A program made the translations under genes and the position numbers. From Stutzerimonas stutzeri (lineage in GTDB: Bacteria; Pseudomonadota; Gammaproteobacteria; Pseudomonadales; Pseudomonadaceae), in NCBI RefSeq assembly GCF_002890915.1, contig NZ_POUT01000008.1, forward strand, positions 124,001-188,000: 64,000 nt of DNA, given 5' to 3'. Positions 27,552 to 53,003 of this stretch are shown one piece after another. Every line of letters begins with the position of its first letter. The first letter of the stretch is position 1. The notes beneath the pieces are model-generated. The model saw only the letters and a list, made by a program, of their open reading frames with translations, had not been told where the DNA came from and made no database searches.

Positions 27552-27555
27552 GGAC

Positions 27556-34372: not shown

Positions 34373-34437
34373 GACGTAACAAGAACAACAACCACAACCC
34401 GATCAATCACTGCCGCAAACCCTGGGGAGAACATCCA

Positions 34438-36021: not shown

Positions 36022-36041
36022 GCCCAAACGGAGACCACGAG

Positions 36042-37461: not shown

Positions 37462-38568
37462 GTGTCCATGATGCAAGCAGCTCGTCTGCACGAGATCGGT
37501 GGTCGTTTCGTCGTCGACGAGATCCCGATACCCAGCCCCGGCCCCCACGACGTACTGGTCAAGGTTGCCGCCAGCGGGATCATCCCCAACCTGAAGAACG
37601 TCACCACCCATTTCCCCGAGTGGTATCCCTTCCTGCCGCTGCCCAGGTTGCCAGCCATCTTCGGCCTGGATTCGGCCGGTACCGTGGCCGCCGTGGGCAC
37701 CCACGTCACCGCGTTCAAACCCGGCGATCGCGTCTACGTCAATCCCGGCGTAGGTTGCGGCGAGTGCCGTCACTGCCGCGAGGGCAACGCACCGCGCTGC
37801 GAGTCCTACACCTTCACCGGCTACTTCGGTTTCGGTCCCGGTTCGCAGCAGGTCTTCGAACGCTATCCGTACGCGGGCTACAGCCAGTACATGACCGCCC
37901 ACGTGCACAGCCTGGTGCGCCTGCCGGATTGCCTGGGCTTCGCCGCCGCCACCCGCTTCGGCTACCTGGGCACTGCCTATTCGGCCATCCGCAAGGCGGC
38001 GCTGCGCCCGGCGCAGAACATCCTGATCCTCGGGGCCAGCGGCACCCTGGGCGTGGGGGCGGCCCTGCTGGCCCTGGCCTTCGGCGCCGCCCGCGTACTG
38101 GTGGTGGCGCGCGATGCCCTGGCGCTGGAGCGCCTGAAGGCGCTGGACCCGCGCCGTGTGGTGCCGATCCGCATCGGCGAAGGCCGCATCGCCGAGCAAG
38201 TCCGGGCATTGCTGCCGGCGGGCGTCGATTGCATGCTCGATACCCTTGGCGCCAAGGCACCCACCGAGCTATCCGTCGATGCCATGCAGGCGGTCGCCCG
38301 CGGCGGTCGCATCGTGCAGATTGGTGGCGTGGCCGGCCCCATTCCCATCGATCCGCATCCTTTCATGTGCGCCCAGCTGCAGTACCTCGGCTCGCTGTGG
38401 TTCACCACCAGCGAAGGCGAAGAGATGGCCAGCATGATGGAGTCGGGGATCCTCGACCTGTCCATTCTGGAAAATCGCCCGTATCCACTGGAGAAGCTCA
38501 ACGAGGCGCTGGACGAGATCCAGGCCGAAGGCAACGGCTTCAGCAACTTCCACATTCTTCATCGGTGA
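37462..38568 (+). CDS. MDR family alcohol dehydrogenase-like protein lacking catalytic zinc ligands
   Basis: Medium-chain dehydrogenase/reductase of 368 residues. The structural zinc site is complete (Cys99, 102, 105, 113). The catalytic zinc site is not: the usual GVCHTD reads SGIIPN at 38-43 and the usual GHE reads GLD at 68-70. The nucleotide fold LILGASGTLGVGAA is intact. This pattern suggests an NAD(P)H reductase of a C=C or C=O bond without zinc. GTG 37462 fits AGGAG upstream; ATG 37468 is possible. It is followed by a cupin gene. Confidence 0.83.
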   Translation: MSMMQAARLHEIGGRFVVDEIPIPSPGPHDVLVKVAASGIIPNLKNVTTHFPEWYPFLPLPRLPAIFGLDSAGTVAAVGTHVTAFKPGDRVYVNPGVGCGECRHCREGNAPRCESYTFTGYFGFGPGSQQVFERYPYAGYSQYMTAHVHSLVRLPDCLGFAAATRFGYLGTAYSAIRKAALRPAQNILILGASGTLGVGAALLALAFGAARVLVVARDALALERLKALDPRRVVPIRIGEGRIAEQVRALLPAGVDCMLDTLGAKAPTELSVDAMQAVARGGRIVQIGGVAGPIPIDPHPFMCAQLQYLGSLWFTTSEGEEMASMMESGILDLSILENRPYPLEKLNEALDEIQAEGNGFSNFHILHR

Positions 38569-38627: not shown

Positions 38628-39167
38628 ATGAAAGCACAACGCGTCGTCACCGGGCACGATGCCCGGGGCCGCTCGCGGATCGTCAGCGCCGGTGCGATTC
38701 CCGGTGACGAACCGTTCAGCAACGTTCCGGGCTTCAGTGCCGCGATGTTCTGGAAAACCGAAGCCGCGCCGCAGGTCGGCAATGTGCAGCCCGATCCGCC
38801 GGCCCGGCCTACTTCCGTCCTGCCCGGGCCGGGCGGCACCTGCGCAATGCTGGTGACCTTCCCGCCGGAGCCGGAGGTACTGCCCAGCGAAGAGCGGCTG
38901 CAGGCGGCAGGGGCGGAAATGGCCGCCCGGCTGCCCGGCCTGGCCGAGCTGTTCGAGCCGGACGCACCGGGTTTCCATCGCACCGACAGCATCGACTACG
39001 GCGTGCTCCTGGAAGGGGAGCTGACGCTCGTCCTCGACGAAGGTGAAACCACCGTGGTGAGAGCAGGCGATGTGCTGGTGCAGATGGGTACCCGCCACGC
39101 CTGGCGTAACACCGGTAACACTCCGGCCCGGATGATGTTCGTGATGGTGCACGCGAAACGCGTGTGA
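38628..39167 (+). CDS. Cupin domain-containing protein
   Basis: Protein of 179 residues with a C-terminal cupin (about 105-175): HRTDSIDYGVLLEGEL and GDVLVQMGTRHAWRN give the two His/Glu motifs. The N-terminal part is a conserved lead-in without known role. GAGGAGA precedes ATG 38628. Family members are often found with aromatic catabolic genes; a reaction cannot be named. Confidence 0.8.
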   Translation: MKAQRVVTGHDARGRSRIVSAGAIPGDEPFSNVPGFSAAMFWKTEAAPQVGNVQPDPPARPTSVLPGPGGTCAMLVTFPPEPEVLPSEERLQAAGAEMAARLPGLAELFEPDAPGFHRTDSIDYGVLLEGELTLVLDEGETTVVRAGDVLVQMGTRHAWRNTGNTPARMMFVMVHAKRV

Positions 39168-39293
39168 GACGTGGGCCCTGGCCGAGCTGGAAGACGGCTC
39201 CCTGCCGTCTCCGGTTCTTTCCATTGTCATTCATAACAAGGACATGTCGTCTCATCCGACGCTGATCGACACCGAACGGGAGGAAATACCTCC

Positions 39294-39321
39294 GGCCCAT
39301 CGCACGGCGCTGCGATGGGCC
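39294..39321. repeat. Perfect 11-bp inverted repeat upstream of the XylS-type regulator
   Basis: GGCCCATCGCA, six bases, TGCGATGGGCC. No T-run follows, so it is not a typical terminator; it could be an operator or an RNA hairpin. A shorter repeat GGAGG/CCTCC lies just before it. The 436-bp stretch 39168-39603 has no gene; it holds this and the repeat at 39529. Confidence 0.6.
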
Positions 39322-39528
39322 ATGAAGATAGGCATGCTTAATGCTTGATCAGGACTGTGGTCACGACGAACCGAACACTCATTGCCCTGGAGCGGCTGGT
39401 GTTCAGGCCGAAGGGAAGGATTACCGCACCATCGGCAGATGACCACGCTATGCCTTGCACTGAACCGGAGCACCTGAAAGGACGCTTTGGCCCGCGTCGG
39501 TTCAGCTAGCGATTGCAATAACAAGAAT

Positions 39529-39551
39529 GATCCCGGGCACGACTCGGGATC
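39529..39551. repeat. Inverted repeat GATCCCG-N9-CGGGATC near the regulator start
   Basis: Seven-base arms around nine bases, 53 bp before the regulator start codon. A possible autoregulatory operator or leader hairpin; function unknown. Confidence 0.45.
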
Positions 39552-39603
39552 GCATAAGAATCGTGCAAATCGATCTGGTTGCCTGGCCAGACCGAAGAGG
39601 GTC

Positions 39604-40608
39604 ATGCAAATGGAACAGTTGAGTTTCCGTCCGGTTACACCGCCAGAAACCGTGCTGGCGCGTTATGAGCTTTGTCGTACCCATGACCTGGAAGAGGCTC
39701 GCCAGTGGGGTGAGAAGATCTTCTGCGAGAACCGCCTGTGCGCCGTGGATAGCAAGGGCGCGGTCAACACCCGCATCTACTACCGGCGTATCGGCAGCAT
39801 CGGCATAGGCCGCATGAGTTACGGCGGTGCGGTGACAATCAGGCCGGATGTGATGGAGAACTTCGCCCTGGTGCAGATGCCCATCCGCGGGGAGGAGCGA
39901 ATCGAGGTCGGCTCGCAGCGCGTAGTGTGCAACCCGCACATGGGCTCCGTGCTCAACAGCCATACCCCCACGTTGATCAACCACGCGTCCAATACCGAGA
40001 AGCTGATCATCCGCATCGATCGTAGCCTTCTCGAGCGGCATTGCCAGCAATTGCTGGGGCGTACGCTGCGGAACCAGATCGAGTTCGACTCCAGCATGCC
40101 GTTGAACACCGTGGCCGGTGCGCGCTGGCTGCGGATGGTGGGGTGGGTCTACGACTGCGTGTCGCAGGATGATGAAATCCCGCCGCTGATGGTCGCGCAG
40201 CTGGAGAGTGGCCTGGTCAGCCTGCTGCTGGCCAACCAGCCGCATACCTATTCGGCCGAACTGGCGTCAGAGGGGCCGTCGCTGGCGCCGTCCTTCGTCA
40301 AGCGGGTCGAGCGCTACATCGAGGAACAGGCCCACGAGCCGATCTCCATCGTCGACATGGCCGAGCATGCCGGCGTCAGCAGCCGCTCGCTGTTCACCGG
40401 GTTCCGCCGCTACCGCAATACTTCGCCCATGCTCTACCTGAAGGAAATCCGCCTGCGTCGGGTCAACGAAGAGCTCAAGCGGCTGGCGCCCGGTGGCGAT
40501 ACCGTGACGGCCGTGGCCTTCCGCTGGGGCTTCAGCCACCTCGGGCACTTCACCACCGACTACAAGCGTCGCTTCGGCGAGAGCCCCTCCGAGACCCTGG
40601 CGCACTGA
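39604..40608 (+). CDS. XylS/AraC-family transcriptional activator (candidate regulator of the five operators)
   Basis: Regulator of 334 residues. The N-terminal part (about 30-200) is the AraC_binding_2-like sensor seen in XylS-type proteins; the C-terminal third has two HTH motifs (IVDMAEHAGVSSRSLFTGFRR and TAVAFRWGFSHLGHFTTDYKRRFGESPSE), the second of the strongly conserved XylS type. ATG 39604 follows AAGAGG; ATG 39610 is also possible. It stands just before operator copy 4. In size, family and position it resembles OxoS, the activator of quinoline genes in P. putida 86 (from memory of that work). Confidence 0.87.
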   Translation: MQMEQLSFRPVTPPETVLARYELCRTHDLEEARQWGEKIFCENRLCAVDSKGAVNTRIYYRRIGSIGIGRMSYGGAVTIRPDVMENFALVQMPIRGEERIEVGSQRVVCNPHMGSVLNSHTPTLINHASNTEKLIIRIDRSLLERHCQQLLGRTLRNQIEFDSSMPLNTVAGARWLRMVGWVYDCVSQDDEIPPLMVAQLESGLVSLLLANQPHTYSAELASEGPSLAPSFVKRVERYIEEQAHEPISIVDMAEHAGVSSRSLFTGFRRYRNTSPMLYLKEIRLRRVNEELKRLAPGGDTVTAVAFRWGFSHLGHFTTDYKRRFGESPSETLAH

Positions 40609-40641
40609 GCGTGCCGGGGCGTTCGGCAATTCGCATCTTTT

Positions 40642-40703
40642 GGCACTGACGGGATAAGCCCAACGGTTTCGGGAGCGTCAGCGCGGACATGGCTTCTTAG
40701 GAT
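40642..40703 (+). promoter_or_regulatory. XylS/OxoS-type operator and promoter of the Rieske operon (copy 4 of 5)
   Basis: Half-site GGCACTGACGGGATA at 40642-40656, five bases, second half-site AACGGTTTCGGGAGC at 40662-40676, -10-like TTCTTAGGAT at 40694-40703 (one base closer than in the other copies). The -10 region resembles CTTAGGCTTTAT of the XylS-activated Pm promoter. Confidence 0.72.
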
Positions 40704-40756
40704 GACTGAAAAGCGCCACATGGGGTGGCGTCTTTCCTGACAACCAGGGGGTAATC

Positions 40757-42091
40757 ATGTCCGAGCAGCCTATCGTCCGGCGCCGTGTGGTAAAGCACGG
40801 CATCAGCGATGCCCGCGCCAACAACGCCAAGACCCAGAGCCAGTACCAGCCCTACAAGGATGCTGCCTGGGGCTTCATCAACCACTGGTACCCGGCCCTG
40901 TTCAGCAAGGAGCTGCCCGAGGACCAGGTCGAAGGCCTCATGATCTGCGGCGTGCCGCTGGTGCTGCGCCGGGTCAACGGCAAGGTCTACTGTCTCAAGG
41001 ATCAGTGCCTGCACCGTGGCGTACGCCTGTCAGAGAAGCCCATGTGCTTCAACAAGAGCACCATTTCCTGCTGGTACCACGGGTTCACCTTCGATCTGCA
41101 GAGCGGTGACCTGGTCACCATCGTCGCCAATCCGGACGACAAGCTGGTGGGAACCACCGGCATCACCACCTACCCGGTGCACGAAGTCAACGGCATGATC
41201 TTCGTCTTCGTGCGCGAGGACGACTTCCCCGACGAGGACGTCCCGCCGCTGTCCCACGACCTGCCGTTCCGTTTCCCGGAGAACAGCGAGCGCTTCCCGC
41301 ACCCGCTGTGGCCATCCTCGCCGAGCGTGATGGACGACAATGCCCAGATCCGCGGCATGCACCGTACCGGCTACGGCAACTGGCGCATCGCCTGCGAGAA
41401 CGGCTTCGACAACGCCCACATCCTGGTGCACAAGGACAATGCCATCGTCCATGCCAAGGACTGGGTGCTGCCGCTGGGCATCCTGCCGACCGCCGACGAC
41501 TGCATCAGCGTGGTCGAGGACGAGGACGGCCCGAAAGGCCTGATGCAGTGGCTGTTCACCGACAAATGGCAGCCGATCCTGGAGAACGGCCCTCTGGGGT
41601 TGAAGGTGGAAGGCCTGAATGGTCGCTTCTACCGCACTTCGGTGGTCCTGCCGGGGGTGCTGATGGTGGAGAACTGGCCGGAAGAGCATGTGGTGCAGTA
41701 CGAGTGGTACGTGCCGATCACCGACGATACCCACGAGTACTGGGAAATCCTGGTACGCGTGTGCCCGACCGAAGAAGACGTGAAGAAATTCGACTATCGC
41801 TACAAGTACATGTACGAGCCGCTGTGCCTGCACGGCTTCAACGACTGCGACCTGTACGCCCGCGAAGCCATGCAGAACTTCTACTCCGACGGTACCGGCT
41901 GGGACGAGGAGCAACTGGTGGCCACCGACGTCTCGCCGATCACCTGGCGCAAGATGGCGTCGCGCTGGAATCGCGGCATCGCCAAGCCGGGGCGCGGCGT
42001 GGCCGGCGCCCGCAAGGACACCAGCCTGATCTTCAAGGACACCGCCGACGGCCACCGTCCGGGCTACAGGGTCCGCAAGATCGAAGAGTGA
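40757..42091 (+). CDS. Rieske non-heme iron oxygenase, CarAa/OxoO-like terminal component
   Basis: Ring hydroxylase of 444 residues. Rieske cluster ligands Cys84, His86, Cys105, His108 (CLHRG, CWYHG); mononuclear iron His221 and His225 in ENGFDNAHILVHKD with bridging Asp218; third ligand Asp363 or Asp365 in GFNDCDLYAREAM. The sequence aligns well with carbazole dioxygenase CarAa (GFINHWYPALFSKE, KSTISCWYHG, FEWYVPI-like) and has the length of 2-oxo-1,2-dihydroquinoline 8-monooxygenase OxoO (446). No small subunit is present, as in that group. Electron donor is probably the reductase at 44863. Confidence 0.88.
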   Translation: MSEQPIVRRRVVKHGISDARANNAKTQSQYQPYKDAAWGFINHWYPALFSKELPEDQVEGLMICGVPLVLRRVNGKVYCLKDQCLHRGVRLSEKPMCFNKSTISCWYHGFTFDLQSGDLVTIVANPDDKLVGTTGITTYPVHEVNGMIFVFVREDDFPDEDVPPLSHDLPFRFPENSERFPHPLWPSSPSVMDDNAQIRGMHRTGYGNWRIACENGFDNAHILVHKDNAIVHAKDWVLPLGILPTADDCISVVEDEDGPKGLMQWLFTDKWQPILENGPLGLKVEGLNGRFYRTSVVLPGVLMVENWPEEHVVQYEWYVPITDDTHEYWEILVRVCPTEEDVKKFDYRYKYMYEPLCLHGFNDCDLYAREAMQNFYSDGTGWDEEQLVATDVSPITWRKMASRWNRGIAKPGRGVAGARKDTSLIFKDTADGHRPGYRVRKIEE

Positions 42092-42144
42092 TGCCTTCGG
42101 GCCGGCCTCGACCGGGGCTGGCCCGCCTGTTTCAGGAATCCGTT

Positions 42145-43005
42145 ATGTCGTACTTAACCCCAAGCGACAGCCAGTTCGTCGCGGTTGACGGCGTGCGCCT
42201 GCATTACCAGGTGCTGGGCCGGGACACCGGACGGCTGCCGATCTTATTCACCCATGGCGGTGGGCCGGGCAGCACGGCCTGGAGCAACTTTCGCCTCAGT
42301 GCCGGCGCGTTCGCGGCCGATCACCGGTGCTACTTCGTCGATTTGCCGCAGTTCGGACGCTCCGCCATGGTCCCGGTGCAGGGCCCGCTGTTCGGCTGGC
42401 ACGCCAGTAAGCTGCTGGGGCTGATGGATGCCCTGGGCATCGCCCGCGCGCACCTGATCAACCAGTCCTTCGGCGGTTGCGTCGCGCTGCGCCTGGCCGT
42501 GGACCATCCGCAGCGGGTCGGGCGGCTGGTCACCATAGGCTCGCAGCCCGTGGACCAGGGGGCGATGGCGCCGCTGCCGCTGTTCAGCAAGCATGCCGCG
42601 ACGCTGATGAGCGACTACTACCTGGCCGATGGCGGGCCGACGCCGGACAAGCTGCGCCGGCTGCTGCAGCGCTACGAACTGCACGACGACAGCCGCCTGG
42701 ACGAGGAAAACCTGCGCCTGCGTTTCGAGGCCAGCGACAACCCGGACTACATCCGCCTGCTGCAGACGCCCGGCGCCTTCGGCGAGTGGGAGAACCTGCT
42801 GCCGGAGCTGCATCGGGTACGGGCGCCGACCCTGATGTGCTGGGGGCTGCATGACTGGTTCGGCAGCATCGATGTGCCGATGATGATGCTCAACCGCCTG
42901 CCCGGGGCGCAGCTCCACGTATTCGGCAACGCCGCCCACCATCTGCAGAGCGAATGCCCGGACGAGTTCAACGCCCTGGCCATTAGCTTCATCGGAGCCG
43001 CATGA
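42145..43005 (+). CDS. Alpha/beta hydrolase (meta-cleavage-product-hydrolase-like)
   Basis: Hydrolase of 286 residues. Oxyanion-region HGGGPGSTAWSNFR, nucleophile elbow NQSFGGCVA, acid in WGLHDWF and a His pair in NAAHHLQSE. It resembles MhpC/BphD-type C-C hydrolases, though an ester or amide substrate is possible. ATG 42145 has AGGAATCC upstream. Its stop overlaps the ATGATG start of the amidase gene, so both are coupled. Confidence 0.82.
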   Translation: MSYLTPSDSQFVAVDGVRLHYQVLGRDTGRLPILFTHGGGPGSTAWSNFRLSAGAFAADHRCYFVDLPQFGRSAMVPVQGPLFGWHASKLLGLMDALGIARAHLINQSFGGCVALRLAVDHPQRVGRLVTIGSQPVDQGAMAPLPLFSKHAATLMSDYYLADGGPTPDKLRRLLQRYELHDDSRLDEENLRLRFEASDNPDYIRLLQTPGAFGEWENLLPELHRVRAPTLMCWGLHDWFGSIDVPMMMLNRLPGAQLHVFGNAAHHLQSECPDEFNALAISFIGAA

Positions 43006-44411
43006 TGAACCTGCCCAGCGATCTGCATTACCTGGAGATGCATGAACTGTCGCTGCTGATCCGCAGCCGCAAGATCTCCCCCGTGGAAGTCACCGAGGCC
43101 CAGCTGGCGCGAATCGACGCGCTCGACGGCACGCTGCACAGCTACGCCCGGGTGACCGCCGAACTGGCCCTGGAACAGGCCCGGCAGGCCGAGCGGGAAC
43201 TGGCCGGCGGCCTCTGCCGCAGCCCTTTGCACGGCATCCCGCTGGCCTTCAAGGATCTGTTGGACACCGCCGGCGTGGTCACCGCGGCGGGCATGCCGCT
43301 GCATGGCCAGCGCATCCCGCGGCAGGATGCCACCGTGGTCGCCCGCCTGCGCGAGGCCGGCGTGGTGATGCTCGGCAAGTTGCAGATGACCGAGGGCGCG
43401 TTCGCCATCCATCACCCCGACATCCTGGCGCCGGTCAATCCCTGGGGCGCCGATCATTGGGTCGGTGCCTCGTCCAGCGGCTGCGGGGTGGCCACGGCGG
43501 CAGGGCTCTGCTACGGCTCGCTGGGCAGCGATACCGGTGGTTCGATCCGCTTTCCCTGCGCGGCCAACGGCCTCACCGGGCTCAAGCCGACCTGGGGGCG
43601 TGTCAGCCGCTTCGGTGCCTTCGAGATGGCCGCCAGCCTGGACCATATCGGGCCGGTCACCCGCAGCGCGCGGGACGCGCTGTTCCTGCTCTCGACCATC
43701 GCCGGCCACGATCCGCTGGACCCGACCTCGTTGCCCAGCGTGTGCCTGGAAATCCCGGGCATCGACGACAGCTTCCGCGGCTTGCGCGTGGGAATCGATG
43801 AGCGCTGGCTCAGCGATGGCGTCGACGAGGAGATCCAGCAGGCCTTGCAGCAGGTCATGCAACTGATCGCCGGCGCTGGTGGCCAGTTGCGAAGAATCCA
43901 CATGCCGGACGCCCGCGCCGTGAGCGGCAACTGGGAAATGCACTGCGGCGTACAGACCGCCGTGGCCCACGCCGGCACCTATCCGGCGCGCGCGGGCGAA
44001 TACGGTCCGGCCCTGAGCCGGCTGATCGAGGGTGGTCGTGCCCTGAGCGGCATGGATTACCAGCGCATCCTGCTGGCGGCCCAGCGTTTCACCGGCGAAG
44101 TGGACGCCTTGATGAACGAGCTGGACGTCGTGCTGGCGCCGGTGCAGCCCTACGCCGCGCCGACCCATGAGCAGCTCGCCAATCTGGCGCTGGACCCGGA
44201 GGCCAACCGCCGCCTGATCCAGTTCACCTCGCCATTCAATGTCAGTGGCCATCCATGCCTGAGCCTGCCCATCGGGCTGACCGCCGGCGGCCTGCCCATC
44301 GGCGGCCAGTTCATCGCCCGCAAGGGCGGCGAAGCGCTGCTCTGCCGCGCCGGCATGGCGCTGCAGAAAGTGAGCGACTGGCATCGGTTGCGTCCGCAGA
44401 GCTTCGGCTGA
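43002..44411 (+). CDS. Amidase signature family protein (first of two)
   Basis: Amidohydrolase of 469 residues. Ser-cisSer-Lys triad: Lys84 (AFKDLLD), Ser156 (GASSSGCG), Ser180 (GSDTGGSIR). It is not GatA, since gatBC are absent and the context is catabolic. In the Rieske operon it could open a lactam ring or remove an amide after ring hydroxylation (inference). It ends 451 bp before the reductase gene, in a gap with operator copy 5. Confidence 0.85.
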   Translation: MMNLPSDLHYLEMHELSLLIRSRKISPVEVTEAQLARIDALDGTLHSYARVTAELALEQARQAERELAGGLCRSPLHGIPLAFKDLLDTAGVVTAAGMPLHGQRIPRQDATVVARLREAGVVMLGKLQMTEGAFAIHHPDILAPVNPWGADHWVGASSSGCGVATAAGLCYGSLGSDTGGSIRFPCAANGLTGLKPTWGRVSRFGAFEMAASLDHIGPVTRSARDALFLLSTIAGHDPLDPTSLPSVCLEIPGIDDSFRGLRVGIDERWLSDGVDEEIQQALQQVMQLIAGAGGQLRRIHMPDARAVSGNWEMHCGVQTAVAHAGTYPARAGEYGPALSRLIEGGRALSGMDYQRILLAAQRFTGEVDALMNELDVVLAPVQPYAAPTHEQLANLALDPEANRRLIQFTSPFNVSGHPCLSLPIGLTAGGLPIGGQFIARKGGEALLCRAGMALQKVSDWHRLRPQSFG

Positions 44412-44590
44412 GAGGAAACCTTTCGGATAGCTATGCCCCAATTCCGACTTGCTCGATGTGCGGCTGCATGCCGAGCCGCCGTAGGAGCGGGCAACGTTCA
44501 TTCGCAACGGTTAGCAGGGACAGAACCTTTCGGGGTGCGTAGGCGCTTGCGGGTGGAGTGGCGAGCCCTATCTGTGATTCGGTTGCTTTT

Positions 44591-44617
44591 CACGGGCGGA
44601 TAGCTATGCCCGTTCTT
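44591..44617 (+). terminator. Hairpin resembling a terminator after the first amidase gene
   Basis: Stem ACGGGC / GCCCGT around ten bases (GGATAGCTAT), then TCTTT. Placed 180 bp after the amidase stop in the 44412-44862 gap. The 15-mer CGGATAGCTATGCCC occurs here (44596) and again at 44424. Confidence 0.45.
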
Positions 44618-44704
44618 TCCGGCGTCTGCGTTCCCTGTGGCGCGGCGTAGGCCTGTGCAGGGGCTTTTCCAGGCCGTCGGCATTGGTGCTTTCGCAACTT
44701 AATT

Positions 44705-44767
44705 TGCACTTTCGGGATAACGGCGTAGCCCATGGGAGCGCAGTCGCACCCTGTCGCTTCCTAACAT
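44705..44767 (+). promoter_or_regulatory. XylS/OxoS-type operator and promoter of the reductase operon (copy 5 of 5)
   Basis: Half-site TGCACTTTCGGGATA at 44705-44719, an exact TGCA-N6-GGNTA; five bases; second half-site GTAGCCCATGGGAGC at 44725-44739; -10-like TTCCTAACAT at 44758-44767. Transcript start near 44774, before ATG 44863. The preceding gap also holds a lone REP half (44481-44492). Confidence 0.75.
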
Positions 44768-44862
44768 CCGGCACAAGGCCAGCCCGTCCGGGGCGCTGGT
44801 GGATTGCACCCCACACGCTTCAGCCCGGCTTCAAGCAAGTCCCGATTCCGGTGGATTCCGAT

Positions 44863-45891
44863 ATGAATGAACAACTGCATCACGTCACCCTCAACTTCGC
44901 CGATGGCGTTACCCACAGCTTCAGCGTGCCACGGGGCGCCAACATCCTCGAAGCGGCGATCGCGGCTGAAATGCCGGTGCTCTACCAGTGCCGCTCCGGC
45001 GGTTGCTCGAGCTGCATCTGCACATTGAGCGAAGGCGAGGCGGTTACCCAGCCGGGTGCCAGCTCCTCGCTGCTGGGCAGTGAGTACGAGGCCGGCCAGC
45101 GCTTGCTGTGCGTTTCCCAGGTCAACTCGGACTGCACCTTCAACCTTGGCTACGGCAGCGAGGTGGGCTCCTGCGCGGCGCAGGAAGTCCATGCCTTCAT
45201 CGACTCCGTGGAGCGCATCGCCAGCAATGTGGTGAAGCTGACCCTGGAGCTTGCCGACGGGGAGTGGATGGAGTTCCGCCCCGGCCAGTTCATGCAGATC
45301 GTGGTGCCCAGCCTGGGGGTGCTGCGCAGCTACTCGCCGTCGAGCACCCAGGTCGATTTGCCGAAGATGGAATTCCTCATCCGTCTGCTGCCGGGCGGCG
45401 CCATGTCCGATTTTCTCGCGAACGTGGCCGAGCGGGATCAGGTCCTCACCCTCAGCGGACCATATGGTGCGTTCTTCCTGCGCGAAGAACATAAGCGCGC
45501 ACCGCATATCTTCGTCGCGGGTGGCACCGGGCTGGCACCGATTCTGTCGATGATCGACACCCTGCGACAAGGCAGCGGGCGCAAGCCGCGGATGCTGCTG
45601 AGCTTCGGTTGCGCCGTGCCCGAGGCGCTGTTCTCCCTGGAAGACATCGAGCTGCGCAAGCAATGGCTGCCGACCCTGGAAACCCGCATCTGCGTCGACC
45701 GCGAGGCCAGCGACGGCCTGCATCCGGGCAGCCCGGTCAGCGCCTTGCGTGAAGACGACGTGATCAGCCCGGACACCGTCGCCTACCTGTGCGGCCCGCA
45801 GCCGATGATCGATGCCGCCACCCAGCGCCTGACCGCGCTGGGCGTGAAACCCGAAAACATCTTCGCCGAGCAGTTCGTTGCCAGCCACTGA
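44863..45891 (+). CDS. Ferredoxin-type oxygenase reductase (2Fe-2S, FAD, NAD), OxoR-like
   Basis: One-chain reductase of 342 residues. N-terminal plant-type [2Fe-2S] domain with Cys43, 48, 51 and 83; FAD domain (about 105-200) with RSYSPSS; NAD domain (about 205-342) with GGTGLAPILSM and CGPQPMID. It would pass electrons from NADH straight to the Rieske oxygenase. The size equals that recalled for OxoR of P. putida 86 (342). ATG 44863 follows the promoter at 44705. First gene of an eight-gene operon. Confidence 0.9.
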   Translation: MNEQLHHVTLNFADGVTHSFSVPRGANILEAAIAAEMPVLYQCRSGGCSSCICTLSEGEAVTQPGASSSLLGSEYEAGQRLLCVSQVNSDCTFNLGYGSEVGSCAAQEVHAFIDSVERIASNVVKLTLELADGEWMEFRPGQFMQIVVPSLGVLRSYSPSSTQVDLPKMEFLIRLLPGGAMSDFLANVAERDQVLTLSGPYGAFFLREEHKRAPHIFVAGGTGLAPILSMIDTLRQGSGRKPRMLLSFGCAVPEALFSLEDIELRKQWLPTLETRICVDREASDGLHPGSPVSALREDDVISPDTVAYLCGPQPMIDAATQRLTALGVKPENIFAEQFVASH

Positions 45892-45901
45892 GGAGCCGCG
45901 C

Positions 45902-47224
45902 ATGAAACCTACAACTTCGCTTCCGCTCACCTCTGAGCAAAGCCAGTGGTACGAACTGGCCCGCGCCAAGCTCGATCCCCAGCGTCTGCAGAAGCTGCTG
46001 TTCCAGCTGACCAACATTCACAGCCCCACCGGCGCTACCCGCGAGGCCAGCGAGTTCATGCGCCGGCACATGCAGTCGATCGGCATGAAGGCGCGCTACT
46101 ACCCGATGAACGACCTTACCGGCAATGCGCTGGGCGAGTTCAGGGGCAGTGGCGGCGGGGCGACCGTGTTGCTCTATGCGCCGATCGATACTCACCTGGA
46201 TCGCACACCGGGTGAGGAGATTCTCACCGGCGATGGCGAGGAAGCCGACCTGCAGCCGTATGCGCAGATGGTCGACGACTGGGTGTTCGGCCTCGGCTCG
46301 TCGAACCCCAAGGCGATGATCGCCACCTTGACCGAGGTGGCCACCGCGCTGATCGAGGCCGGTGTCCCGCTCAAGGGCGATCTGCTGCTGGGAGTGGCCG
46401 ACGGCGGCATGCCGGTGGATATCGGTGCGCGCCATGCCGGGATGTCCAACGGCGTGATTCACATGCTCAACCGCGGCATGTATCCGGACTTCGCCATCAT
46501 CATGAAGCCGTGGAACTGGGTCTACCACGAGGAACCGGGCATGGCCTGGTTCAAGCTCAAGGTCAAGGGCACCCTCGGTTATGCCGGCGTCCCCCATGGT
46601 ATCCCGGGCTTCCGTAGCTCCGTGGTGCCGGCTGCGACAGTGATCCAGGAGCTGCAGCAGTGGATCCTGCAGTACACCGACCGCAACACCAGCGGCGTGA
46701 TCCAGCCTCATGGCTGGATCGCCGGCGTGCGCGGCGGCCAGGTCGAGCGCCCGGCGTTCCCCAGCGCGGTCACCGAAATTTTCTTCGATGTACGCGTCAA
46801 TCCGCGCGTAAGCCCGGCCAGCGTCAAGGCGCAGTTCGCCGAGTTCGTTGCCGATCTGAATGCACGCTTCCCGGACCTGGATCTGGACTGGGAGCAGTAC
46901 GGCTCGGCACCGGGCGGCACCACCGATCCAGAGAACTGGATCATCCAGTCGTGCAAGCGCGGTTGGGAGTTCATCGAGCAACGCCCCCATGGCGAACCGG
47001 ACATGCTCGCCGGCCAGACCGACGGCGCGGCGCTGCGTCGCTACGGTGTCCCCACCGCCCGCATCGGCTGGCCGTGGCCCGCGACTGGTGCACCGCTGCC
47101 GGTGGCCGAGGGGCTGGGCGGCATGGGCGCGACCTACATCCCGGACCTGATGCCCTGCGCGGAAAAGATCCTCTACGCGCTGATCGACACCCTGAGCCGG
47201 CCGCGCCATGAAATGGGCCTGTAA
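45902..47224 (+). CDS. M20-family metallohydrolase-like protein with altered metal ligands
   Basis: Protein of 440 residues with an M20 peptidase fold. The first metal motif is kept as THLDRTP (His98, Asp100), but the usual bridging Asp is Asn135 (GLGSSNPK) and the usual Glu-Glu pair reads Asp-Gly-Gly at 167-169. A dizinc site therefore looks incomplete. GGAGCC precedes ATG 45902, ten bases after the reductase stop. It may bind or transform an amide intermediate in another way. Confidence 0.75.
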   Translation: MKPTTSLPLTSEQSQWYELARAKLDPQRLQKLLFQLTNIHSPTGATREASEFMRRHMQSIGMKARYYPMNDLTGNALGEFRGSGGGATVLLYAPIDTHLDRTPGEEILTGDGEEADLQPYAQMVDDWVFGLGSSNPKAMIATLTEVATALIEAGVPLKGDLLLGVADGGMPVDIGARHAGMSNGVIHMLNRGMYPDFAIIMKPWNWVYHEEPGMAWFKLKVKGTLGYAGVPHGIPGFRSSVVPAATVIQELQQWILQYTDRNTSGVIQPHGWIAGVRGGQVERPAFPSAVTEIFFDVRVNPRVSPASVKAQFAEFVADLNARFPDLDLDWEQYGSAPGGTTDPENWIIQSCKRGWEFIEQRPHGEPDMLAGQTDGAALRRYGVPTARIGWPWPATGAPLPVAEGLGGMGATYIPDLMPCAEKILYALIDTLSRPRHEMGL

Positions 47225-47234
47225 GGAGCCGCCG

Positions 47235-47984
47235 ATGAGCAAGCGAATCAAGATGATCTTCCCGGTTCCGATGAGCGAAGCCACAAGGCCGTTGGTGGAA
47301 TCCCAGTTGCCCGTCGCGATGTTGCGCCCGGATATCGAGGTCAGCTTCGTCGGCGCCGGCCAGGTGATGACCTTGGCCGACAGCTACTACGACATGGCGC
47401 TGATGGAACTGGCCGTGATCGAAGCCGGCATCAAGGCCGAGGAAGAGGGCTTCGACGCGGTGTGCATCAACACCGTCAGCGACTCCGGCCTGGCCGCGCT
47501 GCGCTCGCGGCTGTCGATCCCGGTGCTGGCCCCCGGCATCGCCGCGTTCCATACCGCCGCCATGCTCGGCCATACGTTCAGCATCCTGACCATGTGGCCA
47601 CGCTGGTTTCCGCTGTACCGCAAGACTCTCAAGGAATACGGGCTGGAGTCGCGCCTGGCGTCGGTCCGCTCGATCGATGTTCGTCCGGATACCGAGGCGC
47701 TGCTGCAGGGCAAGGAGGAGTTCGTCTTCGGCAAGCTGCTCGAGGCCGGCCGGCGCGCCATCGAGGAAGACGGCGCCGACGTCATCGTGCTCGGCTCGAC
47801 CACCATGCACCAGTCCCACGCCTACCTGGCCGAGCACCTGCCGGTGCCGGTGCTCAATCCGGGCGTGATCGCCTACAAGCAGTGCGAACTGCTGCTCGAC
47901 CTTGGCCTGTGCCACAGCAAGGTCGCCTTTCCCAGCCCCGAGCTGAACAAGGACGGGGCTTTCGTGAGCCAGGGCCGTGCATAG
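47235..47984 (+). CDS. Asp/Glu/hydantoin racemase family protein with one active-site Cys
   Basis: Protein of 249 residues of the Asp/Glu racemase superfamily, which also holds hydantoin racemase, maleate isomerase and arylmalonate decarboxylase. Cys77 (AVCINTVSD) is in the first active-site position; the second, usually Cys in GC(A/T), is Ser188 (VLGSTTM). The single Cys argues against simple racemisation; isomerase or decarboxylase activity is possible. TAAGGAG precedes ATG 47235, 10 bp after the M20-like gene. Confidence 0.78.
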   Translation: MSKRIKMIFPVPMSEATRPLVESQLPVAMLRPDIEVSFVGAGQVMTLADSYYDMALMELAVIEAGIKAEEEGFDAVCINTVSDSGLAALRSRLSIPVLAPGIAAFHTAAMLGHTFSILTMWPRWFPLYRKTLKEYGLESRLASVRSIDVRPDTEALLQGKEEFVFGKLLEAGRRAIEEDGADVIVLGSTTMHQSHAYLAEHLPVPVLNPGVIAYKQCELLLDLGLCHSKVAFPSPELNKDGAFVSQGRA

Positions 47985-47991
47985 GAGAGCC

Positions 47992-49443
47992 ATGATGAAA
48001 ATGTTCGAATCGGCAGCGGCCCACGCCCTCAGCGACCTGACCATCGCCGAGGCGATGACGGCCTTCCGCGACGGTGTGCTGAGCAGTACCGAGCTGGTGG
48101 AGGCCTGCCTGGAGCGCTGTGACGATGGCAGGGAACTGAACGTATACGTGACCCTCGACCGCGCCGGGGCGCTGGCGGCCGCCGGGGCCGCCGATGCCGC
48201 GCGCAGGGCCGGTGAGCCGCTCAAGCCGTTGAGCGGGATTCCCATCGTCATCAAGGACAACATCCACTGCGCCGGCTTGCCTTGTACGGCCGGCTCGCCG
48301 GCCTTCGCCGATTTCGTCCCGGCGGAGGATGCGCCCACCGTGCGCACGCTGCGCGAGGCCGGCGCGATCATCCTCGGCAAGACCAACATGCATGAGCTGG
48401 CGTTCGGCGCCACTGGCTACAACGGCGCATTCAACACCGGGCGGGAAGTGGGGGTGCGCAACCCCTACGACAGCACCCGCATCGCCGGCGGTTCGTCATC
48501 GGGCAGCGCCGCCGCGCTCGGTGCGCGCATGGCGCTGGCGGCGCTGGGCACCGATACCGGTGGTTCGATGCGCATTCCGCCGGCGCTCAACGGTTGCGCC
48601 TCGCTGCGTCCCAGCCAAGGTCGCTACAGCGACCAGGGCGTGATCCCGATCGCCCGCAGCCGCGACACCGTCGGGCCCATGGCCCTGTGCATGGCCGACG
48701 TGGCGCTGCTCGATGGCTTGATCACTGGCGATCATGCCCTGCCGTCGATCACCCTCGAGGGGCTCCGCTTCGGCATCCCCGCCGAATGCTGGCGCAACCT
48801 GGATGACGACACCCAGGAGCAGGCCCATGCCGCGCTGGACAAGCTCCGTGCCCATGGTGTCCAGCTGGTGCCCATCGAGGATGCCGGCCTGCTGGCGCTC
48901 AACGAGCCGGTGGGCTTCAGCGTGGTGATCCACGAGGCTTACGACTGCATGGTCGAGTACCTGCATGCGTATGGCCACGGCATGACCATCGAGCAGGTCG
49001 CCGAGAAGCTGCACAGTCCCGATGTGCGTTACATCTACGAGAACTGGGTGCTGCCTCGCAGGATTCCGGCCGCAGACCAGCTGGTGGCTTCGGGGCCGCT
49101 GTACCACGCCGCGCAGAACGGTGGCCGCCAGGCGCTGCGCGAACGCTATCAGGATCTGTTCGAATCCCTTCGCCTCGACGGATTGCTGTTTCCGACGACC
49201 GCCGTGGTTGCTCCGCTCGCGCAGGAAGAGGTCAACCAGCCGGCGAGTTTCGAGCGCCTGATCCAGAACACCGAACCGGCTGCCAGCGCGGGATTGCCCT
49301 GCATCCAGGTGCCGGCGGGCCTCGGCACGCGCAGTGGCCTGCCGGTGGGCATGGAACTCGACGGTCCGCTGGGCAGCGATCGCCGCCTGCTGGCGATCGG
49401 GCAGTTGCTGGAAAGCATTTTTGGCCGCGTAGCGCGGGCGTGA
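47992..49443 (+). CDS. Amidase signature family protein (second of two)
   Basis: Protein of 483 residues with the triad Lys88 (VIKDNIH), Ser168 (GGSSSGSAA) and Ser192 (GTDTGGSMR). AGGAGAG precedes ATG 47992. It differs clearly from the first amidase, so the two probably serve different steps or substrates. Coupled closely to the racemase-like gene, with the SDR gene 18 bp downstream. Confidence 0.84.
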   Translation: MMKMFESAAAHALSDLTIAEAMTAFRDGVLSSTELVEACLERCDDGRELNVYVTLDRAGALAAAGAADAARRAGEPLKPLSGIPIVIKDNIHCAGLPCTAGSPAFADFVPAEDAPTVRTLREAGAIILGKTNMHELAFGATGYNGAFNTGREVGVRNPYDSTRIAGGSSSGSAAALGARMALAALGTDTGGSMRIPPALNGCASLRPSQGRYSDQGVIPIARSRDTVGPMALCMADVALLDGLITGDHALPSITLEGLRFGIPAECWRNLDDDTQEQAHAALDKLRAHGVQLVPIEDAGLLALNEPVGFSVVIHEAYDCMVEYLHAYGHGMTIEQVAEKLHSPDVRYIYENWVLPRRIPAADQLVASGPLYHAAQNGGRQALRERYQDLFESLRLDGLLFPTTAVVAPLAQEEVNQPASFERLIQNTEPAASAGLPCIQVPAGLGTRSGLPVGMELDGPLGSDRRLLAIGQLLESIFGRVARA

Positions 49444-49461
49444 GATGAGAGGAGAAACCTG

Positions 49462-50220
49462 ATGAGACGCAATGACGGTTGGCGCGACAAGGTGGTGATC
49501 GTGACCGGTGGCGCCAGTGGCATGGGGCGGGACGTATGCCTGGCGCTGGCGGCCGAGGGGGCGTGTCTGGTGATCGGCAATCGTAACGCCGAAGCCGGCC
49601 AGGCATTGCTGCGGCAAATCCGTGCCGGCGGCGGCCAGGCGCTGTTCCTGCCGACCGACGTGTCACGGCCGGAGGACTGCGAGGCACTGGTGGCGCTGGC
49701 CATGGACAGCCATGGCCGGCTCGACGGCGCATTCAACAACGCTGGCCTGCAGCGGGCCTTCAACGCGATCCACGCGACGCCGATCGCCGATCTCAGCGAG
49801 GTCATCGACATCAATCTCAAGGGCATGCTGTACATGATGAAGTACGAGACGGCCGCCATGCTCGCCAGCGGCGGCGGTTCGATCGTCAACAACGCTTCGA
49901 TCTTCGGCCTCAAGGCGATGCCCGAGACGGCTTATTACGTCGCCTCCAAGCACGGCATCGTCGGTGCGACGCGCGCCGTGGCACTGGACTACGCCAGCCA
50001 GGGCATCCGCGTCAACGCGGTATGCCCCGGCCCGGTCAAGACGCCCAGCTTCGACCGCGTCACCGGCGGTGACGACCATCTGTACGACAACGGCGTACCC
50101 ATGCGCCGCATAGGGCAGCCGGAAGAGATAACCGCGGCAGTGCTCTGGCTGCTGTCCGACCAGGCTTCCTACGTCACCGGTACGACGCTCTCGGTGGATG
50201 GCGGCATGGCAGCGCAATAG
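49462..50220 (+). CDS. SDR family oxidoreductase
   Basis: Short-chain dehydrogenase of 252 residues. Cofactor motif TGGASGMG (15-22), NNAG at about 92-95, catalytic Ser/Tyr/Lys in NNASIFG and YYVASKHG, PGPVKTP, and the C-terminal SVDGGM. Resembles cis-dihydrodiol or alcohol dehydrogenases used after ring oxygenation, but substrate class cannot be fixed. GAGAGGAG precedes ATG 49462. Confidence 0.85.
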   Translation: MRRNDGWRDKVVIVTGGASGMGRDVCLALAAEGACLVIGNRNAEAGQALLRQIRAGGGQALFLPTDVSRPEDCEALVALAMDSHGRLDGAFNNAGLQRAFNAIHATPIADLSEVIDINLKGMLYMMKYETAAMLASGGGSIVNNASIFGLKAMPETAYYVASKHGIVGATRAVALDYASQGIRVNAVCPGPVKTPSFDRVTGGDDHLYDNGVPMRRIGQPEEITAAVLWLLSDQASYVTGTTLSVDGGMAAQ

Positions 50221-50258
50221 TGCTCGCGTTTCAGGGGTGATCACAGGAGAACAACAAG

Positions 50259-51218
50259 ATGATCAACGCACTGAGCTATGTGGTGGTGCAGACGCCGCAT
50301 CTCGAGGCCTGGATGGAGCAGGCGCGCGACCACATCGGCCTGCAGGTCGAGGTCGTCCGTCCTGGAGCATGCGTGCGCCTGCGCGCCGATGAGAAGGTGC
50401 AGCGCCTGCTGGTCAGCCGGACCGAAGGTGAGGCCAGCATGGGCATGGGCTTCGAGGCGGCGGATGCGGCCGATGCCGAGCGCATCCGCATTGCCCTGGA
50501 GGCCGGCGGCTACGCGACCACACCGGCCTCGGCCGAGGAACTGGCGTTGCGCGGGGTTGCCGGCATGTTTCATTTCCGCGACCCCGACGGCGTGACGATC
50601 GAGGTGTGCCACGGCCTGGCGGATGCCGCCAGTCCCTTCGTTGCGGGGCGCCCGCTGGGCGGATTCCGCACCGGCGACATGGGCCTGGGGCACGTCGCGC
50701 TCATCACCGAGCACTTCGACGAACTCAGTCATCTTTACCGCAACATCTTCGGCTTCAAGGTCAGCGACTACACCCATGCGCCGTTTCGCGTGGAGTTCCT
50801 GCACTGCAATCCGCGCCACCACACCATGGGGCTGGCCCATACCGGCGGGCCGGCGAAGATCTACCACCTGATGCTCGAATACAACGATTTCGACGACGTT
50901 GGCCGCGCCTACGACGTGGCGCTGACCAACCCCGACAGCATTGGCGTGACCCTGGGCCGCCATATCAACGACCACGTCACCTCGTTCTACCTGAAGAACC
51001 CGGATGGCTGGATGTTCGAGCTAGGCTGGGCCAGCCGCACCGTCGGGCCGGACTGGGAAGTCGAGGAACTGCAGGGCATGAGCCTGTGGGGCCACGACCG
51101 TACCTGGCTGCCGGAGCACAAGCGCGAAGAAGCCCGGCAGATCCTCAAGCGCCTGGCCGCCCAGGGTGTGCGCGCCCCGGTCGTTACCACCTCTCAAACC
51201 GCTAAGGGCAAACAATGA
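50259..51218 (+). CDS. VOC-family extradiol dioxygenase (BphC-like)
   Basis: Type I extradiol dioxygenase of 319 residues with two vicinal-oxygen-chelate domains. Iron ligands His145 (LGHVALI), His203 (YHLMLEY) and Glu254 (MFELGW) are all present, spaced like His146/His210/Glu260 of BphC; a catalytic His (about 188) and Tyr (about 244) are also kept. It cleaves a catechol-type ring in meta position, probably a bicyclic or substituted one. It is unrelated in fold to MhpB in the same regulon. Hydrolase follows with the stop-start overlap. Confidence 0.88.
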   Translation: MINALSYVVVQTPHLEAWMEQARDHIGLQVEVVRPGACVRLRADEKVQRLLVSRTEGEASMGMGFEAADAADAERIRIALEAGGYATTPASAEELALRGVAGMFHFRDPDGVTIEVCHGLADAASPFVAGRPLGGFRTGDMGLGHVALITEHFDELSHLYRNIFGFKVSDYTHAPFRVEFLHCNPRHHTMGLAHTGGPAKIYHLMLEYNDFDDVGRAYDVALTNPDSIGVTLGRHINDHVTSFYLKNPDGWMFELGWASRTVGPDWEVEELQGMSLWGHDRTWLPEHKREEARQILKRLAAQGVRAPVVTTSQTAKGKQ

Positions 51219-52063
51219 CCACCACCGCTTCCCCGGAAATCGCCAACAGCCTGCGGATTGGCGAATGCACCCTCAACTATCACGACCAGGGCCAGGGCGA
51301 CGCCATCCTCCTGATCCATGGTTCCGGCCCTGGCGTCACCGCCTGGGCCAACTGGCGTGGCGTGATTCCTGCGCTGTCCCGGAACGCCCGCGTCATCGCC
51401 CCGGACATGCTGGGCTTCGGCTATACCACCTGCCCCGGCGACTGGAAGCTGGATCCCACGGCCTGGGTGCGGTCGCTGGTGGGCCTGCTCGATGCACTGG
51501 ACGTCCCGCAGGTATCCATCGTGGGCAATTCCTTCGGCGGGGCGATTGCGCTGGCCTTCGCCAAGGCGTATCCGCAACGCGTTCGGCGCCTGGTGCTGAT
51601 GGGCGCCGCGGGGCTGCCGTTCCCCATCACCGAGGGGCTGGAAAAGGTCTGGGGTTACCAGCCATCGCTGCAGGCGATGCGTGAGCTGATGGAAGTGTTC
51701 GCCTACGACCACGGGCTGATCAACGACGATCTGGTGCGGATGCGCTACGAGGCCAGTATCCGCGACGACGTGCAGACGCGCTTCGCCCAGCTGTTCCCGG
51801 CGCCTCGCCAGCAGGGGGTGGAAATGCTCGCCCTGGCCGAGGACGCGCTGCGTGCACTGCCGCATGAGACCCTGCTGGTCCACGGCCGTGACGACAAGGT
51901 GATTCCCCTGGAAGTCTCCGAGCGCATGTTGCGCTTGATCCCCCACGCCCAGCTGCATGTGTTCGGCGAATGCGGCCACTGGGTGCAGATCGAAAAAGCC
52001 CCGGCCTTCGTCCGCCTGCTCACTGACTTTCTCATCGACCCGCCATCCTGCAACGGAGCATGA
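51215..52063 (+). CDS. Alpha/beta hydrolase (BphD/XylF-like meta-cleavage product hydrolase)
   Basis: Hydrolase of 282 residues. HGSGPGVTAWANWR, elbow GNSFGGAIA, acid in HGRDDKV and His in ECGHWVQIEKAP. The close coupling to the extradiol dioxygenase (ATGA overlap) suggests it hydrolyses that enzyme's ring-cleavage product. It is the third such hydrolase in the window. Confidence 0.87.
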   Translation: MTTTASPEIANSLRIGECTLNYHDQGQGDAILLIHGSGPGVTAWANWRGVIPALSRNARVIAPDMLGFGYTTCPGDWKLDPTAWVRSLVGLLDALDVPQVSIVGNSFGGAIALAFAKAYPQRVRRLVLMGAAGLPFPITEGLEKVWGYQPSLQAMRELMEVFAYDHGLINDDLVRMRYEASIRDDVQTRFAQLFPAPRQQGVEMLALAEDALRALPHETLLVHGRDDKVIPLEVSERMLRLIPHAQLHVFGECGHWVQIEKAPAFVRLLTDFLIDPPSCNGA

Positions 52064-52509
52064 ACATGAATCGCGAAACCATAAAAGGCCGCTGGAACAT
52101 CCTGGCCTGGGAGCAACTCTACGACGATGGCCGCGTGGTACTGCCCATGGGGTCCGAGCTGGAAGGCTTCATTGAATACTCCGACTTCGGCATGTTCTGC
52201 GTCGTCTCGCGCATGGATCGCCCGGCATTCGCCAGCGGAGGCCAATGGTCGGCCAGCGATGCCGAGAAGGCGGCGGCCTACGGCAGCTACCTGACGTATG
52301 CAGGAGACTACGACGTCGACGGCAATACCATCACGCATAAGGTACGCCACAGCCTCTTCCCCGACTGGGTAGGCGGCGAGCAGCGCCGTAGCGCCGAGCT
52401 GGAAGGCGACGTCCTCGCGCTGACGGCTCGGCTTGAGGTGGGCACAAGCGAAGCGCGGACTGCACGGCTGCTCTGGCGGCGAGCGGGGGCCCCGTGCTGC
52501 GCTCAGTGA
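52060..52509 (+). CDS. Lipocalin-like domain-containing protein
   Basis: Protein of 149 residues with the short lipocalin-like fold seen in accessory proteins of catabolic clusters: IKGRWNILAWEQLYDDGR, GFIEYSDFGMFCVVSRMDR and the central SYLTYAGDYDVDGNTITHKV. Enzymatic role unknown; perhaps an isomerase or binding protein. ATG 52060 overlaps the hydrolase stop (ATGA); ATG 52066 is also possible. Last gene of the reductase operon. Confidence 0.78.
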   Translation: MNMNRETIKGRWNILAWEQLYDDGRVVLPMGSELEGFIEYSDFGMFCVVSRMDRPAFASGGQWSASDAEKAAAYGSYLTYAGDYDVDGNTITHKVRHSLFPDWVGGEQRRSAELEGDVLALTARLEVGTSEARTARLLWRRAGAPCCAQ

Positions 52510-52572
52510 CTGCGCAAAGCCCTCCGCCGGAAGGGCGGAGCGGTGTCTCGTCCTCATCGGTAGCCTGAAAGG

Positions 52573-53003
52573 CTATTGCCTGATGTGCTCCGCCAGGAAG
52601 TCGATCAGCGTCCTCACCGAAGGCAGCAGGCCCCGGCGGGACGGGAAGACGGCGTGGACGATTCCGCTGCGGGGCACCCATTGCGGGATGATGTCCACCA
52701 GCCGGCCCTGTTCCAGGTCCTGATCGACGACCATCAGCGGCAACTGCACGATGCCTACGCCGTGCAACGCGGCCCCCAGTCCAGGCTCGGCAGGTTGCCG
52801 AGATCGGCCGGCACCAGCGGCAGGTCGAGGCCTTTCAGGAAATCCGCACTCGCCACCAGGCGCTGCGGGCTCTGCGCCAGGCTGCGCATCACCAGGCCGC
52901 TGTCTTCCAGCGGCGGGAAGCGCACGCGCAGCGCCAGGTCCAGCCCTTCGCCGAGCACATCGACCCGCCGGTTGGCCGTTCGCCGGTACGTGCGGCATCG
53001 GCT
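52573..53003 (-). pseudogene. LysR family regulator, C-terminal remnant with internal deletion
   Basis: Only part of the effector domain survives. From about 53003 a frame reads RTANRRVDVLGEGLDLALRV up to PADLGNLPSLDWG, then, after loss of some 60 residues and a frame change near 52770, GVGIVQLPLMVVDQDLEQG up to LIDFLAEHIRQ and the stop at 52573. The HTH half is missing; its place is taken by the 3' end of the AceE-type gene. Confidence 0.8.

Follow-up and report, generated by a model that had tools for sequence, protein, structure and literature searches.

The closest described counterpart of the gene cluster reported here is the quinoline pathway of Pseudomonas putida 86, which, like the cluster, presumably runs through 2,3-dihydroxyphenylpropionate and is served by a regulator of the AraC/XylS family. 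The cluster lies in a 64,000-nucleotide stretch of a Stutzerimonas stutzeri genome (assembly GCF_002890915.1, contig NZ_POUT01000008.1, positions 124001–188000; hereafter the window, whose numbering is used throughout) and is a catabolic island that forms a new variant of the known 2-oxoquinoline pathway. As described in the available portions of the reports cited in this paragraph, XenA, an old yellow enzyme (OYE), acts on 8-hydroxycoumarin in P. putida 86 (PMC5519977), and HcdE, an alcohol dehydrogenase of the medium-chain dehydrogenase/reductase (MDR) type, acts on 7-hydroxycoumarin in P. mandelii 7HK4 and does not use quinolin-2(1H)-one (PMC7913881). The same 8-hydroxycoumarin route, with release of ammonia, was proposed from metabolites detected in a Rhodococcus study, in the main text of which the terms 'gene cluster' and 'oxygenase' are absent (PMC9029321). 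The aminohydrolase NaaA hydrolytically removes the amino group of 5-nitroanthranilate (PMC10306065) and is placed among enzymes thought to act by paths of the nucleophilic aromatic substitution (SNAr) type, with metal hydroxides or covalent aryl esters as part of the mechanism (PMC11903332). For the conversion of 8-hydroxy-2-oxoquinoline to 8-hydroxycoumarin we found no gene in the open-access literature, subscription papers being outside our scope.

We put the probability at about 0.78 that the island converts 2-oxo-1,2-dihydroquinoline, or a close lactam, to ordinary metabolites by way of 2,3-dihydroxyphenylpropionate, without QorMSL and with a XylS-type regulator. QorMSL, quinoline 2-oxidoreductase, is the molybdenum enzyme that normally forms 2-oxoquinoline from quinoline. 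The genome is a 4.77 Mb draft in 37 contigs, 100% complete by tool estimate. Genes were called by codon score and named by searches of Pfam, NCBIfam and the PDB. The gene rows, on the + strand like the operator boxes described below, span mhpB (23606) to lip (52509). An earlier note, written from the sequence, had placed a putative N-heterocycle cluster at 40757–52509 and had invoked an MDR enzyme and MhpB; both are in the window (37468–38568 and 23606–24556), but they lie outside that interval, and the extradiol dioxygenase inside it is of type I. The island thus extends upstream to include mhpB, C, D, F and E (23606–28578) and the MDR reductase gene.

The oxygenase gene, oxoO (40757–42091), encodes a 444-residue protein with PF11723 and PF00355 (Rieske oxygenase) domains. 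Against 1z01, the oxygenase component of 2-oxoquinoline 8-monooxygenase from P. putida 86, it scores 952 bits in a gapless alignment over residues 1–444, with 384/444 identical. In a tree of 82 rows, several forks of which are open or weakly supported, the 1z01 enzyme and the window OxoO both stand among Pseudomonas proteins. C84, H86, C105, H108, H221, H225 and D365, which we take to be the Rieske Cys/His and mononuclear-iron ligands, are kept in at least 97% of 80 rows (the gene clustering by codon score dropped two loci of 40% G+C content, L022 and L029, and row counts for residue conservation exclude both). By sequence, the window protein and OxoO of P. putida 86 are orthologs, with the same predicted activity; the likeness suggested in the earlier note goes beyond size, and no clade with another known substrate was seen to claim the protein. 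The 342-residue reductase also named there is present: oxoR (44863–45891) starts at an inner start of a listed open reading frame (44683–45891) and encodes a ferredoxin-FAD-NAD reductase with Fer2, FAD and NAD domains, its probable identity as OxoR following from these domains and the gene neighbourhood. Compared with the P. putida 86 pathway, the window thus has an OxoO ortholog and a reductase gene, whereas its genome lacks QorL and, in place of XenA, a linked MDR enzyme is the candidate for reducing 8-hydroxycoumarin; P. putida 86 was compared by OxoO sequence, not by its other cluster genes, and the assignment of an M20-fold protein and an amidase to the pathway is ours.

A scan of genome contigs for oxoO relatives gave 123 loci, the best 80 of which were used. 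Parts of the same gene set adjoin oxoO in these 80 loci, so that the cluster is not a chance assembly. Counting as present any homolog of at least 45% identity over at least 40% of the protein, we found oxoR in 71 of the 80, m20 in 64, amiA in 50, the regulator gene oxoS in 40, rac in 37, sdr in 36, abh2 in 27, amiB in 25, lip in 20, abh1 in 19 and edo in 13; these are lower bounds, many loci ending within the cluster at contig ends. The oxoR and m20 genes co-occur in 67 loci when no length filter is applied, adjacent on one strand in 51 and 2.2–9.3 kb apart, centre to centre, in 16.

The mhp row comprises mhpB (23606–24556; 2,3-dihydroxyphenylpropionate 1,2-dioxygenase of the LigB type, PF02900; NF009907 565 bits, cut-off 549), an mhpC-like gene for a ring-fission product hydrolase (24573–25430), mhpD (25785–26579; 2-keto-4-pentenoate hydratase, NF008461 475 bits), mhpF (26610–27551; acylating acetaldehyde dehydrogenase, TIGR03215 466 bits) and mhpE (27556–28578; 4-hydroxy-2-oxovalerate aldolase, TIGR03217 597 bits). 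Four of the five (mhpB, D, F and E) exceed equivalog cut-offs, as in the known mhp pathway, from which the window differs in that its mhp genes adjoin oxo genes and carry XylS-type boxes. Genome-wide searches used 43 genomes drawn from the 80 loci, the MhpB and M20 counts covering 42 (L069 left out). An MhpB homolog of at least 291 bits occurs in 40 of the 42, above the strict 549-bit cut-off in 14; only weak matches were found in the remaining two, G024 (L037) and G041 (L073). We also compared 248 Pseudomonadaceae genomes, a set that overlaps the 42, of which 16 have oxoO (the window's own included) and 232 do not. MhpB at E ≤ 1e-60 was found in 16/16 with oxoO versus 14/232 without (p = 2e-17 by Fisher test, which here and below counts related genomes as independent). 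Among those 16, mhpB lies 15–21 kb from oxoO on the same contig in 12, at 110 kb in one and on another contig in three.

Upstream of the oxo and mhp genes are boxes of the XylS type. The AraC/XylS-family regulator gene that we name oxoS (39604–40608; PF14525 and HTH_18) precedes oxoO, and the sites upstream of oxoO (40640–40657) and oxoR (44703–44720) have KGCACTNNCGGGATA in common, a pattern that both match by construction, having been built from these two sites; single boxes were scored. It resembles the box (TGCA, six bases, GGTA-like) given for XylS in the available portion of one report (PMC5481539). At ≤1 mismatch, the 64 kb hold two added sites, before mhpD (25644–25661; 1 mismatch) and before a row of BNR, MMPL, DUF1302, DUF1329, MDR and cupin genes (30803–30820; 1 mismatch against the 15-mer and 3 against the 18-mer), with 0.11 matches expected overall. 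An 18-mer at ≤3 mismatches gave six sites in the window, all on the + strand, five before gene rows and one within the MDR gene. It was composed after the oxoO, oxoR and mhpD sites had been seen, so that three of the six fit by construction; the other three compare with 1.1 expected and a maximum of 5 in 200 shuffles. The boxes ahead of the five rows, two of them weak, include one upstream of mhpB (23486–23503; 3 mismatches). Of four exact genome matches to the degenerate 15-mer KGCRCTNNCGGGATA, three are in the window.

An independent test used the mhpB upstream regions of 15 other oxoO genomes and 14 oxoO-less genomes with MhpB, accepting a box with ≤2 mismatches within 400 bases (contig ends truncate regions L142, L146 and L160). 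The box precedes mhpB in 10/15 oxoO genomes versus 0/14 oxoO-less ones (p = 0.0002), and in 0/5 oxoO-less genomes with the same mhpB type (73–80% identical; p = 0.03). Random pieces, drawn from the same regions with the boxes included, matched in 59 of 2000 cases at ≤2 mismatches. A looser box, TGCA-N6-GGNTA (≤1 mismatch, within 250 bases), precedes oxoO in 43/79 and oxoR in 25/72 when the window is counted with the loci, against 37/395 and 23/360 random pieces in the respective controls. One predicted operator type is common to the oxo and mhp gene rows, which form a candidate regulon, and since the box linked to oxoO also stands before mhpB, it ties the pathway to 2,3-dihydroxyphenylpropionate. 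The proposal in the earlier note that this catechol is the product is borne out by the mhp row, by the spread of MhpB among oxoO genomes and by these boxes. A XylS-type regulator probably controls the island by binding to them.

No QorL ortholog was found in the window, in line with the earlier note, or elsewhere in the genome, by PF20256 profile search, by comparison with 1t3q and with the QorL of locus L066 as query. The profile search returned molybdenum hydroxylase large subunits at four places, none on the window's contig. The strain must therefore import the 2-oxo compound as such or have some other means of producing it. At 4670–8425, upstream of oxoO, locus L066 (Rhizorhabdus histidinilytica) carries a true QorL (1074 bits to 1t3q_B), before which stand two genes with the sizes of M and S; it is the only one of the 80 loci with these. 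As a query, this QorL matched 18 of the 43 oxoO genomes at E ≤ 1e-80; the sole ortholog was L066's own, the second-best match reaching 542 bits and 39%. A QorL ortholog is thus lacking in 42/43 oxoO genomes, and there may be exceptions in drafts of unstated completeness or among more distant molybdenum enzymes. Given this rarity, the majority of OxoO islands may well be fed otherwise than from quinoline by the known route, and their annotation would then change.

Two proteins are candidates for nitrogen removal. The first, an M20-fold protein (m20, 45902–47224), is present in 42/42 oxoO genomes at 65–94% identity and, among the Pseudomonadaceae, in 16/16 with oxoO versus 1/232 without (p = 3e-24). 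An AlphaFold2 model (predicted local distance difference test score, pLDDT, 84.9; predicted template modelling score, pTM, 0.87) is closest to structures of NaaA (Foldseek E 2e-34; VIA Z 37.5, root-mean-square deviation 3.3, 403 aligned); the next match is a putative acetylornithine deacetylase (VIA Z 33.5). The protein has the fold of NaaA (5k8m), but is ~20% identical to it, and a common fold does not show a common reaction. The His of the HxD motif is replaced by P94, the bridging Asp by N135 (Asn also in NaaA) and a later Glu ligand by K202, each invariant in 59 rows; the NaaA metal-site His and Glu correspond to Pro94 and Lys202. The positions of the Glu-Glu pair are occupied by G169/M170, which do not vary across 30 rows. 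We take all these positions to be the metal-ligand sites of the fold; the pairing was made by eye against one protein, L113, called DapE-like by its motifs. The strong conservation of the M20 protein, with 168/440 positions kept at ≥97% in 59 rows, speaks for a functional enzyme whose site has been rebuilt, and the protein is our best candidate for aryl C-N cleavage.

The second protein, AmiA (43002–44411; PF01425, 329 bits), is one of two amidase-signature proteins in the interval, the other being AmiB (47995–49443), as the earlier note had reported. It is a candidate lactam or amide hydrolase, in which K84, S157–S159 and S181, presumably the catalytic triad, are kept in at least 97% of 47 rows. 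Either AmiA would open the lactam and the M20 protein would then remove the amine, or the M20 protein would cut the C8a-N bond and AmiA would then hydrolyse the primary amide. The pair offers two named, testable genes for a nitrogen-removal step without an assigned gene.

The C3-C4 double bond could be reduced by the MDR-family protein (37468–38568; homolog in 42/80 loci, family assigned by Pfam on a relative), a candidate 8-hydroxycoumarin ene-reductase, or by an unlinked OYE; the genome holds five OYE-family matches. P. mandelii 7HK4 offers a parallel, with an MDR-type enzyme at work in the catabolism of a coumarin-like compound, but its pathway has another entry substrate, and HcdE is likened here by description, not by sequence.

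In the pathway that we propose, OxoO and OxoR would hydroxylate the substrate at C8, as the sequence family of OxoO suggests. The M20 protein and AmiA would then break the C8a-N and C2-N bonds, in either order, releasing ammonia and yielding cis-2,3-dihydroxycinnamate or its lactone, 8-hydroxycoumarin. Following reduction of the double bond by the MDR enzyme or the OYE, a lactonase, for which the alpha/beta hydrolase Abh1 (42145–43005) is a candidate, or water would give 2,3-dihydroxyphenylpropionate, which MhpB, C, D, E and F, assigned to their families by sequence, would take to succinate, pyruvate and acetyl-CoA. Doubtful, though possible, is a bolder joint proposal: that the M20 protein is a new aromatic C-N hydrolase that has lost its metal site and cleaves the aryl C8a-N bond of the keto tautomer of 8-hydroxy-2-oxoquinoline by acid-base or Lys-mediated chemistry, and that OxoO islands in nature usually act on 2-oxoquinoline-type lactams rather than on quinoline. 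If true, metal-free C-N cleavage by an M20 protein would solve the missing step of the 8-hydroxycoumarin pathway.

The island might instead serve another lactam, such as a substituted quinolinone or an oxindole, with 2-oxoquinoline merely tolerated. QorL is lacking in 42/43 oxoO genomes, which would make quinoline an infrequent starting point by way of QorL; 10 of the 80 oxoO loci have a gene for a StyA-like monooxygenase, accompanied by one for a FadL-type channel in 7 and one for a flavin reductase in 6; AmiB scores above the cut-off of NF005688 (indoleacetamide hydrolase; 611 bits, cut-off 532); and a second extradiol system is present. We nevertheless consider this unlikely, since OxoO is 86% identical to the characterised 2-oxoquinoline enzyme and falls in one tree group with it, and an equivalog-level MhpB with common boxes points to a C6-C3 catechol, which would fit a six-membered lactam better than oxindole.

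Full catabolism of quinoline, with another molybdenum hydroxylase standing in for QorMSL, would have four gene groups in the genome to draw on. Their large subunits, however, are nearest in the PDB to xanthine dehydrogenase, aldehyde oxidase/PaoC and, twice, the aldehyde dehydrogenase large subunit; none scores above 182 bits to QorL (1t3q_B), and no group is on the window's contig, which makes this reading very unlikely. The resemblance to CarAa seen in the earlier note holds at the level of the shared family PF11723, but the CarAa chains reach at most 305 bits, about one third of the 952-bit score to 2-oxoquinoline monooxygenase. A CarAa-type identity was accordingly rejected, and with an MhpB equivalog present as well, a cluster for angular dioxygenation of carbazole is barely conceivable.

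Several observations weigh against a 2-oxoquinoline pathway as we draw it. P. putida 86, in the available portion of the report, relies on an OYE (XenA), not an MDR enzyme, for 8-hydroxycoumarin (PMC5519977). MhpC falls short of the equivalog cut-offs of its nearest models (TIGR03343 371 bits, cut-off 462; NF045632 258 versus 400), and the M20 protein seems to be without the metal ligands of its fold, so that the chemistry of NaaA is not simply transferable. The simple scheme does not account for a second extradiol system, of type I, that the oxoR row encodes. As to the boxes, the one at 23486 before mhpB, with 3 mismatches, is level with chance matches (mean 1.1 per window) and fails the ≤2 test; KGCRCTNNCGGGATA at ≤1 mismatch occurs 26 times in the genome versus 17 for a reversed control; 5 of the 15 oxoO genomes have no mhpB box at ≤2 mismatches, one of them having a box before mhpD; and these 15 genomes are related, some with identical box letters. 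TGCA-N6-GGNTA is absent before oxoO in 36/79 and before oxoR in 47/72, with L040, L066 and L082, among the examples listed, lacking it before both.

Downstream of m20, the oxoR row continues with rac (47235–47984), amiB, sdr (49462–50220; short-chain dehydrogenase/reductase, SDR), edo (50259–51218; a BphC-like type I extradiol dioxygenase), abh2 (51215–52063; a BphD/HsaD-like alpha/beta hydrolase, under cut-offs) and lip (52060–52509; Lipocalin_5). Rac has the fold of Asp/Glu racemases with Thr/Ser replacing both catalytic Cys: Thr80 (Ser in 7/34) and Ser188 (34/34), C77, H192 and C217 being invariant. A further amide or catechol may be the substrate of this branch. In short clusters, rac, amiB, edo and lip were not found within ~10 kb of oxoO; L043, for example, has oxoO, oxoR, m20 and amiA only, and L040 adds an SDR gene (56%) and a hydrolase at 37%.

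Between amiA and oxoR, L007 (Stutzerimonas sp. S1; 13760–17827) carries genes for an AraC regulator, a StyA-like monooxygenase, a FadL/TodX channel and a flavin reductase. Inserts of the StyA type also lie in the amiA-oxoR gap of L010 and L032 and in the oxoO-oxoR gap of L037, and StyA homologs stand at other places in L027, L031, L034, L078, L082 and L083. The monooxygenase might serve as another entry enzyme. In the window's genome, a search lacking a positive control there turned up no StyA homolog. A remnant of such an insert in the window's 451-base amiA-oxoR gap was considered and rejected, the only match to L007 being ~170 bases of the oxoR upstream region. The gap contains an exact 15-base repeat, CGGATAGCTATGCCC, at 44424–44438 and 44597–44611. 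Scans of 39100–52800 for sigma-70 promoters and terminators gave nothing above shuffled sequences.

Carriage of the island on plasmids was likewise rejected: one plasmid record matched at 77% (a 1.19 Mb replicon of Cupriavidus necator) and the other four at 39–40%, three of these four being, we assume, carbazole plasmids. Second oxoO-like copies, ~69–78% identical to the window protein, occur in L035, L060 and L073 and in genomes G067, G204 and G212. The contig of L085 is labelled as a Klebsiella pneumoniae metagenome-assembled genome; its OxoO groups with uncultured Gammaproteobacteria, and the contig is possibly mis-binned.

The BNR-repeat, MMPL, DUF1302 and DUF1329 genes (30864–37313; MMPL homologs in 21/80 oxoO loci) are a probable transport or envelope module. 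A gene for a cupin protein (38628–39167; homolog in 42/80 loci) adjoins the MDR gene, and one for a methyl-accepting chemotaxis protein (28626–30644), possibly a sensor for the pathway substrate, lies directly 3' of mhpE.

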